A stretch of 64,000 bases of DNA from NCBI GenBank assembly GCA_018830885.1, contig JAHJRI010000078.1, positions 1-64,000 of the forward strand. The letters run 5' to 3'. Origin of the DNA: a bacterium. Lineage in GTDB: Bacteria; SAR324; XYD2-FULL-50-16. Of this stretch, positions 13,398-22,094 are shown piece by piece (position 1 is the stretch's first letter; every line of letters begins with the position of its first letter). The translations under genes were made by a program, and so were the position numbers. Below the pieces are notes generated by a model. The model searched no databases. It saw nothing but the letters and a program-made list of their open reading frames with translations, and was not told where the DNA came from.

Positions 13398-13523
13398 CTA
13401 CCGCAATCGAAATTCGACCCGGAAGGGCGTTCTTTCGACAAGCCCCCTCCCTTCCGACTGGCCGTGCCCGGCAAGTCGGAAAGGTCGGATGTCACCATTA
13501 ACCGTCAACAAAGGATAGGTAGA

Positions 13524-14150
13524 ATGTCTGATCAACTGACGCTGGAAATATTCTCCGATTATATCTGACCCTGGTGCTATTTCATCACCGGGCGTGCTGA
13601 GAAACTGAAACAAAATTATGAGATCGGGATCCAGTGGCGGGCTTTTCCCCTGCACCCCGAAACCCCAGCGGAAGGCCAATTGCTGACCGACCTCTTCAAG
13701 GGCTATCCGATGGATATTGAAGGCATGAAAGCGAGACTCAGGGAAACCGCCATCGGACTGGGTCTGCCCCTCGGAGAGCGCGACAGAACCTATAACAGTC
13801 GTCTGGCCCAGGAACTCGGTCTGTGGGCAGAGGAGGAAGGCGCAGGGGATGCATTTCATATGGCAGCGTTCAAGGCATACTTTGCCGATGGACATAATAT
13901 CGGGCAGATATCTGTTCTGCTTGAGCTCGCTTCTGCCGTTGGTCTTTCCGTCGAAACAGCCGCAGATGTGCTGAACAAACGCCTTTTCCGGGAAGCCGTA
14001 GACCAGGATTGGGACTATGCCAGGAAACTGGCGATCACAGCCGTTCCGACATTTCTCATCAACCGGGATCGTTTGGTTGGGGCACAGCCTTATGAAATGC
14101 TGGAGAATTTTGTTACCACCCATGGCGCGGCCAAGCGCCGCCGGAATTAA
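13524..14150 (+). CDS. DsbA/FrnE-family thiol oxidoreductase, selenoprotein (in-frame TGA at 13566)
   Basis: Reading through one TGA gives a 208-residue DsbA-like protein of the FrnE type. The start ATG at 13524 has an AAGGATAGGT site. The frame begins with strand LEIFSDYI, then TGA as codon 15, then PWCY. In this family the motif here is CPWC, so TGA falls exactly on the first catalytic Cys and predicts Sec-Pro-Trp-Cys. The frame then stays open for 193 codons, includes the cis-proline loop TAVPTFLI (Pro175) and ends at TAA. A SECIS-like hairpin follows the TGA. Conventional callers would truncate the gene to start near 13680. There is no signal peptide, so it should act in the cytoplasm as a disulfide oxidoreductase or isomerase. 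Confidence 0.85.
13579..13603 (+). promoter_or_regulatory. Candidate bacterial SECIS element
   Basis: The mRNA just after the Sec codon can fold into a hairpin: CAC (13586-13588) with GTG (13594-13596), one T/C mismatch, then TTTCA (13580-13584) with TGAGA (13598-13602) including one G-U pair. The apical loop is CGGGC. It begins 20 nt after the UGA and carries G at its second position, matching the known loose rules for bacterial SECIS (apical loop about 16-37 nt from UGA, G in the first two loop positions). The lower stem is weak. Confidence 0.55.
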
Positions 14151-18068: not shown

Positions 18069-19778
18069 ATGAAAATACTCCGCGTAAACATGAGCGACCT
18101 GACCATTTCTTATGAATCCGTTTTAGACCGCGATCTGATTATCGGTGGCAGGGCTCTGACAGCCAGAATTCTGAATAAAGAGGTCCCACCGAAAACCGAT
18201 CCGCTGGGACCGGACGCAAAATTGATCATTGCCTGTGGGGCACTGGCCGGAACCAAGGCCCCGTCAGCCGGGCGCTTCTCCATTGGTGCGAAAAGCCCGC
18301 TGACCATGGGCATCAAAGAGGCCAACAGTGGCGGTCCGGCCGGTCAAAAGCTGGATCTCCTGGGGTATCGGGCTGTTATCGTCGAAGGACAGGCAAAGGA
18401 TGGGAAACTGTATCTGCTGAAAATCAGCTCGGAGGGCGTTGAACTCAAAGATGCGGAAGCCTACCGGGGAATGAAAAACTACACACTGGCATCCAAGCTG
18501 TACCAGCAGTTTGATGCAAAAGCCGCCATCATCTCCATCGGCATTGCCGGAGAAAAGGGCTGGAAAGCCTCTGCCATCACAATGACTGACAATGACGGCC
18601 ACTCCTCTAGACACGCTGCCCGGGGTGGTCTGGGGGCGGTTATGGGATCCAGAGGGCTGAAGTGTATCGTGATTGATGACAGCGGCACGCAAAAGGTGGA
18701 GATAGCACACAAACCCGCTTTTCAGGCATCCGTAAAGAACTGGGCCAAAATCACCAAGGAGGACAAAAACCTGAAAGGAACCATGAAGCAGGGGACAACC
18801 GCGGTGATCGGCACGTTGAGATGGCTGGGGGCCATGCCCGCCTTGAATTACAGCAACGAAAAACTGGAGGGAATTGAATCCATCAACGGCGATGCCATCG
18901 AGAAGTTGAACCAGTCCCGGGGAGGCAAAATGGCTGGGTGTATGCCCGGCTGCATCGTCCGCTGCTCCATCGTCTTCAATGACGAAAAGGGAAAACATGT
19001 GACCTCCAGCTACGAGTACGAAACCATCGCCCTGATGGGAACCAACCTGGGTCTCGTGGATCCGGATGTGGTGGCAAAACTGGATTTTCTGGCCGATGAT
19101 ATTGGCATCGATACCATCGAGGTCGGTGCTGCGATGGGGGTAGCCGCCAGTGCCGGGAAGATGAAGATGGGGGATGCGGCTTCCGCGCTGGCTTTGCTGG
19201 ATGAGATCGAAAAGGGAACAGAACTGGGTGTCATGCTGGCAAACGGCGTTGAGGAGACCTGCCGCAAACTCGGTATCGACCGGATTCCGGCATTCAAAGG
19301 CCAGGCGATTCCCGCCCACGATCCCAGAATTACCAAACCAACCGGTGTCAGCTACCATACCAGTCCCATGGGTGCCGATCACACCGCCGGTATCTCCTAT
19401 GATGATTTCAGCTCCAGGGAAGGGCAGATCGAACGATCGCTCGCGTCCCAGGTATTCAATGCCACGCGTGACGCCATGGGCTACTGCATGCTGGCCACAC
19501 CGGCCGACAATAAACTGCTGCTGACCTTTCTCAAGGAGCTGATAAACGCCCGGTACGACCTGAATGTATCGGAAAAAGACATCATCGAAGTCGGTAAAGA
19601 GACGTTGAAGAACGAACTGGCATTTAACCAGGGCAGCGAATTCTTTTCCGCTCATGAACCTTCTCCGGCGTTTATCCGAACAGAACCCATGGGGCCTAAC
19701 AATGCTGTTTTTGATATCGATCCTGCTGAAATAGAGACCCTTTGGGGAAAACTGGACGCTTACCAGATGGAACTCTGA
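18069..19778 (+). CDS. Aldehyde:ferredoxin oxidoreductase (tungsten/molybdopterin family)
   Basis: A 569-residue AOR-family enzyme that oxidises aldehydes to carboxylic acids (or reduces acids) with ferredoxin, using a bis-pterin tungsten site and one [4Fe-4S] cluster. The N-terminal pterin-binding barrel shows GPAGQKLDLLGYRAVIVEG and HAARGGLGAVMGSRGLK. The cluster cysteines appear as GCMPGCIVRC (residues 291, 295, 299), spaced Cx3Cx3C rather than the classical Cx2Cx3C. The last Cys is probably in GYCMLATPADN near the C-terminus. Its stop overlaps the next start (TGATG), so it is co-translated with the acyl-CoA synthetase alpha subunit. Together they would take aldehyde to acid to acyl-CoA, or the reverse. 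Confidence 0.9.
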   Translation: MKILRVNMSDLTISYESVLDRDLIIGGRALTARILNKEVPPKTDPLGPDAKLIIACGALAGTKAPSAGRFSIGAKSPLTMGIKEANSGGPAGQKLDLLGYRAVIVEGQAKDGKLYLLKISSEGVELKDAEAYRGMKNYTLASKLYQQFDAKAAIISIGIAGEKGWKASAITMTDNDGHSSRHAARGGLGAVMGSRGLKCIVIDDSGTQKVEIAHKPAFQASVKNWAKITKEDKNLKGTMKQGTTAVIGTLRWLGAMPALNYSNEKLEGIESINGDAIEKLNQSRGGKMAGCMPGCIVRCSIVFNDEKGKHVTSSYEYETIALMGTNLGLVDPDVVAKLDFLADDIGIDTIEVGAAMGVAASAGKMKMGDAASALALLDEIEKGTELGVMLANGVEETCRKLGIDRIPAFKGQAIPAHDPRITKPTGVSYHTSPMGADHTAGISYDDFSSREGQIERSLASQVFNATRDAMGYCMLATPADNKLLLTFLKELINARYDLNVSEKDIIEVGKETLKNELAFNQGSEFFSAHEPSPAFIRTEPMGPNNAVFDIDPAEIETLWGKLDAYQMEL

Positions 19779-21235
19779 TGACCGCATTGAACCTGGACAG
19801 ACTCTTCAATCCCAGGACGATTGCCATGATCGGCGCCTCCGCAACGCCGGGAAAATGGGGAAATATTATTCTGCTGAATATACTTAAAGGCAATTTCAAA
19901 GGCAGAATCTTTCCGGTCAATCCCAAAGCGGAAAAAATTCTGGGATATCCATGCTACGCGAGTGTACAGGATATCCCGGAGACGATTGACATGGCCCTGA
20001 TCACCACGCCATCTCAATCCATTCTGCCCCTGATCGATGCCTGCGGGGAAAAACAGATCCCTTTTCTGGTCGTGGTCACCTCCAATTTCAGCGAAACCGG
20101 CGATGCGGGAGCGAAGCTGGAAAAGGAGATGATCGCCAGGGCGGCCACCTACGGCATACGGATCGTCGGACCCAATACCATGGGTATATACAGCGCCGAA
20201 TCAGAACTGCACGCGCTGATGCCGATGCTGATGCCCCTGAGGGGTTCTGTCTCCATGTTCTCCCAGAGCGGAAACGTGGGGGTGCAGATGATGGACTACG
20301 GGCAGAAGGAGGGTGTCGGATTTGAAAAATTCGTCAGTAGCGGAAACGAAGGCGACCTGAACAATGTCGATTACCTGAAATATTTTGCAAATGACAAAAA
20401 CACCCGGGTGATTCTCGGCTATATCGAAGGGGTGGATCCCGGGACCGGTTTTCTGCCAACCGTCAGGAGCATTTCAAAATCCAAGCCCATCGTCATGTTC
20501 AAGGGTGGCCGGACTGAAGTCGGGTCACGGGCGGCGGCCTCCCACACCGGCTCCCTGGCCGGTACCCGGGAAATCAACCGGGCTGCCTTTCGACAGGCAG
20601 GGATCATGGAGGTACAGTGCAGCCTGGAACTGATTGACTGCGCCAAGGCTTTCGCCAACTACCCCATTCCAAAGGGAAATCGCGTCGGAATTATTACCCG
20701 GGGCGGCGGTTGGGGCGTCATTACCGCCGATTCCTGCGAGGAAGCGGGGCTGGTTGTCCCCCCCCTTCCAGACGATATGATCCGGCGGATCGACCGGATT
20801 CTCCCAGACTACTGGAATCGCGGGAATCCCGTCGATCTGGTGGCAACGGTTGCGGACGACCCCATGCCGGAGATTCTGACCATGCTGGCCGAATGGGATG
20901 GTGTCGATGCAGTGATTGCCCTCGGGGCAGGATTCAGGTCCTTCAATTTTGAGTACTCCTCTGATGTGACCGGACCACCGGAGCTGATTGAAACCATGCG
21001 CTTCATGAAAAGCCTGTTTGATAACACCTCCAACGCGCCTGACAAAATCCTGCAGCTGATCGCAGACCTGGTCAAAAAGACCGGCAAACCCATCATATCT
21101 GTCTCCACCGGCTCCCAATACTCGCACAAGGAGTTCACGGAAAGATACAAGATCGTCTCCTTTCCCACACCGGAAAGAGCGGTCAAGGTACTGAAAATCA
21201 TGTGCGAATACCATCAAATCAGGCAATCCAGATAA
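19778..21235 (+). CDS. acdA: ADP-forming acyl-CoA synthetase, alpha subunit
   Basis: A 485-residue alpha subunit of acetate/acyl-CoA ligase (ADP-forming), which interconverts acyl-CoA + ADP + Pi and acid + CoA + ATP. The CoA-binding Rossmann domain starts NPRTIAMIGASATPGKWG. A succinyl-CoA-synthetase-like domain follows, carrying the phospho-histidine loop AAASHTGSLAGT (His256). The start overlaps the AOR stop. The beta subunit is 187 nt downstream with its own promoter. The residue preference for acetyl, aryl or branched substrates cannot be read from the sequence. Confidence 0.9.
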   Translation: MTALNLDRLFNPRTIAMIGASATPGKWGNIILLNILKGNFKGRIFPVNPKAEKILGYPCYASVQDIPETIDMALITTPSQSILPLIDACGEKQIPFLVVVTSNFSETGDAGAKLEKEMIARAATYGIRIVGPNTMGIYSAESELHALMPMLMPLRGSVSMFSQSGNVGVQMMDYGQKEGVGFEKFVSSGNEGDLNNVDYLKYFANDKNTRVILGYIEGVDPGTGFLPTVRSISKSKPIVMFKGGRTEVGSRAAASHTGSLAGTREINRAAFRQAGIMEVQCSLELIDCAKAFANYPIPKGNRVGIITRGGGWGVITADSCEEAGLVVPPLPDDMIRRIDRILPDYWNRGNPVDLVATVADDPMPEILTMLAEWDGVDAVIALGAGFRSFNFEYSSDVTGPPELIETMRFMKSLFDNTSNAPDKILQLIADLVKKTGKPIISVSTGSQYSHKEFTERYKIVSFPTPERAVKVLKIMCEYHQIRQSR

Positions 21236-21315
21236 AACAGAAACTTCGCCGTTCCTGAATCGCATGTCCACCATGCCCGATGGAACCGGCTGTCTGTTCA
21301 GAGGAAGCGCTGGAT

Positions 21316-21345
21316 TTGACATAGCCGATCCGTCGGGGTTATAAC
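21316..21345 (+). promoter_or_regulatory. Sigma-70 type promoter for the acyl-CoA synthetase beta subunit
   Basis: TTGACA (21316-21321) and TATAAC (21340-21345) are separated by 18 nt, close to the vegetative consensus, about 75 nt before the beta-subunit start. It suggests that beta can be expressed apart from the AOR-alpha transcript. Confidence 0.6.
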
Positions 21346-21422
21346 TTGATGGAACAAAAGACGACTGACAAAAAAGAGACCCACACGAATCGCTGAACTG
21401 CCATTTCAACCAGGAGGAATAA

Positions 21423-22094
21423 ATGGAGATTATCAAACAGGCACTTAAGAATAACCAAACAACGCTATCCGAATTTGATTCTAAAAGAGTGCTGACTGAA
21501 TACAAAATCCCGGTCACAAGAGAAATCGTTGCCAAGGATGTCAACGAACTGAAACAGGCAGTGGAAAAAATCGGCTTTCCTCTCGTTCTGAAGGGAAGTT
21601 CCGCCGAAATTGCACATAAAACTGAAAAAGGCCTGATTAAAATAGATATCAGAACGTTGGAAGAAGCCACCGCCGCATTCGAAGAGATCACCGCCAAAAT
21701 GGGGGACGACAAGGGCGGCGTGCTGGTGCAGGAAATGATCAAAGGCCAGCGCGAACTCGTTGTCGGTCTGACCCGTGATCCCCAGTTCGGTCCCTGCGTC
21801 ATGTTCGGTCTGGGTGGGATATTCACCGAAATACTGAAGGATGTGGCTTTTCGTGTTGCTCCCCTCACACGTAAAGACGCCATGGATATCATGGATGATT
21901 TCAAGAGCAAAAAAATACTGGATGCCGTTCGGGGGATGGAAGCTGTGGATCGGGAAATCCTGGCAGACATCCTGATTGCTGTTGGCCAGATCGGGCTGGA
22001 TCACGAAGAGATCCAGGAGATCGATATCAACCCCTTGAAAATCCTCAATGGAAAACCAGTGGCTGTCGATGCCCTGGTCGTACTGAAAGCATAA
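21423..22094 (+). CDS. acdB: ADP-forming acyl-CoA synthetase, beta subunit (ATP-grasp)
   Basis: A 223-residue ATP-grasp subunit that carries ATP/ADP in the ADP-forming acyl-CoA synthetase. Visible blocks are GFPLVLKGSSAEIAHKTEKG, VLVQEMIKGQRELVVG, and FGLGGIFTEILKDVAFRVAPL, ending with the EIDINPLKI strand. Length fits the separate beta subunits seen in two-gene systems. It has an excellent AGGAGGAATAA ribosome site. It partners with the alpha subunit upstream. Confidence 0.92.
   Translation: MEIIKQALKNNQTTLSEFDSKRVLTEYKIPVTREIVAKDVNELKQAVEKIGFPLVLKGSSAEIAHKTEKGLIKIDIRTLEEATAAFEEITAKMGDDKGGVLVQEMIKGQRELVVGLTRDPQFGPCVMFGLGGIFTEILKDVAFRVAPLTRKDAMDIMDDFKSKKILDAVRGMEAVDREILADILIAVGQIGLDHEEIQEIDINPLKILNGKPVAVDALVVLKA

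Follow-up and report, generated by a model that had tools for sequence, protein, structure and literature searches.

The locus and its product

Within the 64,000-nucleotide stretch of DNA analyzed here (the window), an interrupted reading frame lies on the forward strand at 13524-14150. A Shine-Dalgarno-like AAAGGA (13510-13515) stands 8 nt 5′ of an ATG at 13524, which is followed by 14 codons, a TGA at 13566-13568, 193 open codons, and a TAA at 14148-14150; start, ribosome site and frame are thus as the original prediction had them. Read through with the TGA as Sec, the gene yields a product of 208 residues with Sec at position 15. Under table 11 the sole ORF left is one of 156 aa with a TTG start at 13680, and therefore a gene caller would lose the active site, as had been foreseen. 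A long open frame behind a TGA is not rare in itself, at least 190 open codons being found behind 45 of the window's 2688 TGAs. The weight of the Sec case lies in homology across the TGA, conservation, and the hairpin described below, not in frame length. Among the window's remaining in-frame TGAs that are followed by a long open frame, none was seen by eye in a UxxC or CxxU context, and an Rfam scan of the whole window gave no match at gathering scores.

Pfam assigns residues 6-196 of the read-through protein to its DSBA domain (PF01323; E 1.6e-35, 123 bits, cut-off 25.6), and since the match spans that range, residues ahead of the TGA belong to the domain. Its best PDB match by phmmer is to the FrnE structures of Deinococcus radiodurans (5cnw, E 1.2e-20), and on the strength of that sequence match the fold is settled. 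FrnE is the family that we take COG2761 to denote. In the phmmer alignment, the active-site codons U-P-W-C (13566-13577, comprising TGA for Sec15, Pro16, Trp17, and TGC at 13575-13577 for Cys18) fall on the CPWC of FrnE, and so the proposed family, the placement of the TGA on the first Cys, and the retention of the resolving Cys all stand. UP(W/F)C is present in 25/25 full-length Sec genes. A VPTF-type motif supplies the cis-proline of the thioredoxin fold; here it is VPTFL at residues 174-178 (14043-14057, forward strand), and every full-length Sec gene has VPTF or something close to it, apart from three that the search pattern missed. With a DSBA domain, a CPxC-type active site, and a cis-Pro, the protein falls within the DsbA family and its FrnE subfamily. 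Cys18 is its only Cys, which leaves it without the C-terminal CxxxxC of a D. radiodurans-type FrnE disulfide reductase, and most of its Sec relatives likewise have no further Cys. Inspection by eye reveals no signal peptide. NCBIfam gives a single match, NF041057, far under its cut-off; no model there covers the protein, and automatic pipelines will therefore probably keep truncating it. Genes around the Sec loci, also read by eye, look mutually unrelated and give no functional hint.

Conservation of the TGA and of a downstream hairpin

Phylum homologues at E<=1e-20 are uniform: in 25/25 genomes, that of the window included, the gene has exactly one internal stop, always a TGA and always at the same codon, so that Sec is the rule for this DsbA/FrnE-like gene in the phylum. 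When the fetched loci are aligned by codon, query codon 15 is TGA in 27 genes (the window gene, those of 24 other phylum genomes, and two more, L048 and L054) and TGC or TGT in 31. No other codon occurs there; homologues with neither Cys nor TGA, which the original prediction had counted as evidence against itself, were not seen. An in-frame UGA where homologues have Cys or Sec is what is expected of a bacterial selenoprotein. The other TGA genes share ~32-70% identity with the window gene, and in them the frame is kept both before and after the TGA; because identity runs as low as ~32%, a shared sequencing error is excluded. Two of the homologous loci are themselves broken elsewhere. In L040/L047 (G038:C3:273202-273787) the frame breaks in two near residue 129, and the L054 match (2001-2562) lies in two frames with a break between residues 61 and 81; in each case the frameshift may be real or come from assembly.

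Just after the TGA, the window carries a bSECIS-like hairpin at 13582-13600 on the forward strand, with arms at 13582-13588 (TCATCAC) and 13594-13600 (GTGCTGA) around the loop CGGGC (13589-13593). A hairpin just after the UGA, with a small apical loop containing a G, is the form taken by the SECIS of bacterial selenoproteins. Six of the seven pairs are formed, the mismatch being U-C at pair 4, and outer pairs can extend the stem. A hairpin had been predicted to begin 20 nt after the TGA; that holds for the loop, which opens with the 21st base past the TGA, but the stem starts earlier, at about 13582. Folded without constraint, the RNA prefers a rival hairpin that begins right at the TGA and is more stable in free RNA (-9.2 to -10.9 kcal/mol, against -5.2 kcal/mol for the SECIS-like hairpin). 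The latter becomes the best fold once at least the first 3 nt after the TGA are omitted, as the ribosome would cover them.

Taken singly, the window gene gives moderate evidence from pairing, 40/2000 synonymous recodings pairing as well as the natural sequence. Across the TGA genes the hairpin is found at a fixed position, with 5-7 of 7 pairs, in 26/27, and the mean of 6.2/7 pairs compares with 3.9 in synonymous recodings, of which 0/1000 reach 6.2. The Cys genes, most of them without the hairpin, stand near chance, with a mean of 4.35 pairs versus 4.13 in recodings (95/1000 reach it). Both sides change in three of the seven pairs (C-G/U-A/G-C, A-U/G-C, and U-A/C-G), and the covariation score is 0.338 versus 0.169 in shuffles; 0/500 of these reach the observed score, which is also above that of all slid registers. 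RNAalifold recovers the same helix unprompted. In L042, a distant TGA gene (33% identity), the hairpin is absent at the SECIS position. A free-energy test for any SECIS-like hairpin did not separate TGA from Cys genes (p 0.97), as the Cys genes that are rich in GC fold well in any case; the two classes separate only with the fixed-position hairpin and the synonymous-recoding and covariation controls.

Probable selenocysteine decoding and its alternatives

The source genome is a MAG (G000) of 496 contigs with 6.4% contamination, and all four sel genes, which the original prediction had proposed to look for, are found in it above curated cut-offs: selA (C277:43490-44767, 533 bits versus 267.9), selB (C409:3820-5712, 368 bits versus 242), selC, the tRNA-Sec gene (C29:280-374, 61.5 versus a gathering score of 47; anticodon UCA, ARAGORN tca), and selD (C29:1823-2749, forward strand, 377 bits versus 125). 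A genome lacking selB or selC, which would have spoken against the prediction, is thus not what was seen. The window lies on another contig, C16, and its link to the sel genes is by binning only; given the different contigs and the contamination, linkage does not prove that gene and machinery reside together. The selD gene, which shares its contig with the tRNA-Sec gene and lies ~1.4 kb away from it, has an in-frame TGA of its own, within the motif GAG*ASKLSPGDL, at a position where Cys is usual, and it probably encodes a Sec-containing selenophosphate synthetase.

We regard it as nearly certain, from the comparative sequence evidence, that the window gene is translated whole, SelB and the hairpin directing Sec15, into a cytoplasmic oxidoreductase of the DsbA/FrnE type whose active site reads Sec-Pro-Trp-Cys. 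The opposite reading, in which the TGA is a true stop and the locus is either a pseudogene or makes just the downstream ORF from the TTG, agrees with table 11 and could appeal to the sequence errors possible in so fragmented a MAG. However, neither decay nor error would strike the catalytic Cys codon repeatedly, and the idea is already refuted by recurrence: the same-codon TGA in 24 other phylum genomes and in L048 and L054, with frames open around it, and the conserved, covarying hairpin of the TGA genes leave it very improbable. Decoding of the TGA as Trp or Cys by an altered code or a suppressor would keep the frame open equally well, since all it asks is that TGA be a sense codon. Yet TGA is an ordinary stop elsewhere in the window, terminating 15 of its 40 large ORFs, the homologues carry Cys and never Trp at codon 15, and the genome has the full Sec pathway; the chance of such decoding seems to us negligible. 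Hardly any more credence attaches to an antisense gene. An ORF of 241 aa is indeed open on the reverse strand at 13398-14123, but long shadow ORFs are frequent in the window, this one has no Pfam match, and the forward-strand product matches DSBA and FrnE along its length.

For a Sec-containing product, a plausible course of synthesis and catalysis can be drawn. SelB, carrying selenocysteyl-tRNA(UCA), would recognize the hairpin downstream of the UGA, and Sec would be inserted at position 15. Sec15, exposed at the N-end of the first helix, would then attack the substrate as the nucleophile, with Cys18 resolving the selenenyl-sulfide intermediate and VPTF providing the cis-proline. A separate partner, perhaps a small thiol or a protein of the thioredoxin or glutaredoxin type, would reduce or re-oxidize the Sec15-Cys18 pair; because there is no Cys besides Cys18, this task should fall to an external partner and not to a C-terminal CxxxxC as in Deinococcus FrnE. 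The protein presumably acts in the cytoplasm, where FrnE proteins are predicted to reside (PMC8945050), and a signal peptide is not apparent in it. Most likely it would reduce or isomerize disulfides, serving thiol redox repair and the defence against oxidative stress.

Relation to known families and the exchange of Sec and Cys

A 2005 report on the Sargasso Sea described DsbA-like selenoproteins with UxxC, assigned to COG2761 (PMC1088965), and such proteins were also found in genomes of anaerobic delta-proteobacteria and others (PMC1794560) and as DsbA 1-3 in GOS (PMC2398784); a 2026 review lists "DsbA-like protein form 1" with PF01323 and UxxC (PMC13188914). The window protein, with UPWC inside PF01323, belongs to this family. 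Set beside form 1 ("DsbA 1" in GOS) by published description, it shows no categorical difference: the domain is the same, Sec comes first in UxxC, a hairpin with a small G-containing loop likewise follows the UGA, and Cys homologues are widespread. A search of the literature for FrnE and selenoprotein together found nothing relevant; the family goes under the name "DsbA-like". Hence "hidden selenoprotein", the label first given to the locus, is fair for the window gene but not for its family, which was known (PMC1088965, PMC13188914), and the gene is an addition to a described family, an annotation fix and not a surprise.

The nearest solved structure by sequence, FrnE of D. radiodurans (5cnw, DR_0659), is a cytoplasmic disulfide reductase/isomerase, also with no evident signal peptide. 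In contrast to it, the window protein has Sec for the first Cys, is shorter (208 residues; the solved FrnE chain has 260), and lacks the C-terminal CxxxxC. That motif has been proposed to regenerate the active site in D. radiodurans FrnE, and some other FrnE homologues are also without it (PMC8945050). The same fold family includes 2-hydroxychromene-2-carboxylate isomerase (2imd) of the DsbA-like superfamily, but its match to the window protein is much weaker (E 2.5e-4, versus 1.2e-20 for FrnE).

On an unrooted tree of the homologues, the Sec and Cys states require 7 changes. The window gene clusters with L048 (a Thermodesulfovibrionia MAG, Sec) and L049 (Desulfobulbaceae, Cys), with support of 100/92 for the trio, and its nearest homologues (L048, L049, and L054) come from other named groups, not from among the Sec genes of its own family (L035, L036, and L039). 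This placement outside its own family points either to horizontal transfer or to misbinning of the contig. Inside the small clade shared with the window gene and L048, L049 combines Cys with a decayed hairpin. Three further Cys genes retain much of it: 7/7 pairs with loop CGTGA in L056 (Geobacteraceae; match 2001-2576), 6/7 pairs in L050 (Desulfosarcina cetonica; match 2001-2600), and 5/7 pairs in L057 (Geobacteraceae; match 2001-2597). These look like fossil SECIS elements, possible relics of reversion from Sec to Cys, with the caveat that some unrelated Cys genes attain 6 pairs by chance, that the tree is unrooted, and that other orders of events are possible. A broader proposal, that a phylum-centred FrnE subfamily has long had Sec as its default and that L049, L050, L056, and L057 acquired Cys by reversion, several of them with a fossil SECIS, would seem to have an even chance of being right; if it is, the stages of Sec loss could be read within one gene.

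For the more practical matter of annotation, reading the TGA as Sec gives back to a redox enzyme the active site that it would be denied by ordinary annotation, here and in at least two dozen relatives, and the mixed Sec/Cys set with its variously decayed hairpins is a small natural series on Sec/Cys exchange. Elsewhere in the window (18069-22094, forward strand), an aldehyde ferredoxin oxidoreductase gene adjoins genes for an acetate-CoA ligase alpha-like protein and an ATP-grasp subunit, probably an aldehyde/acid-to-CoA energy module.
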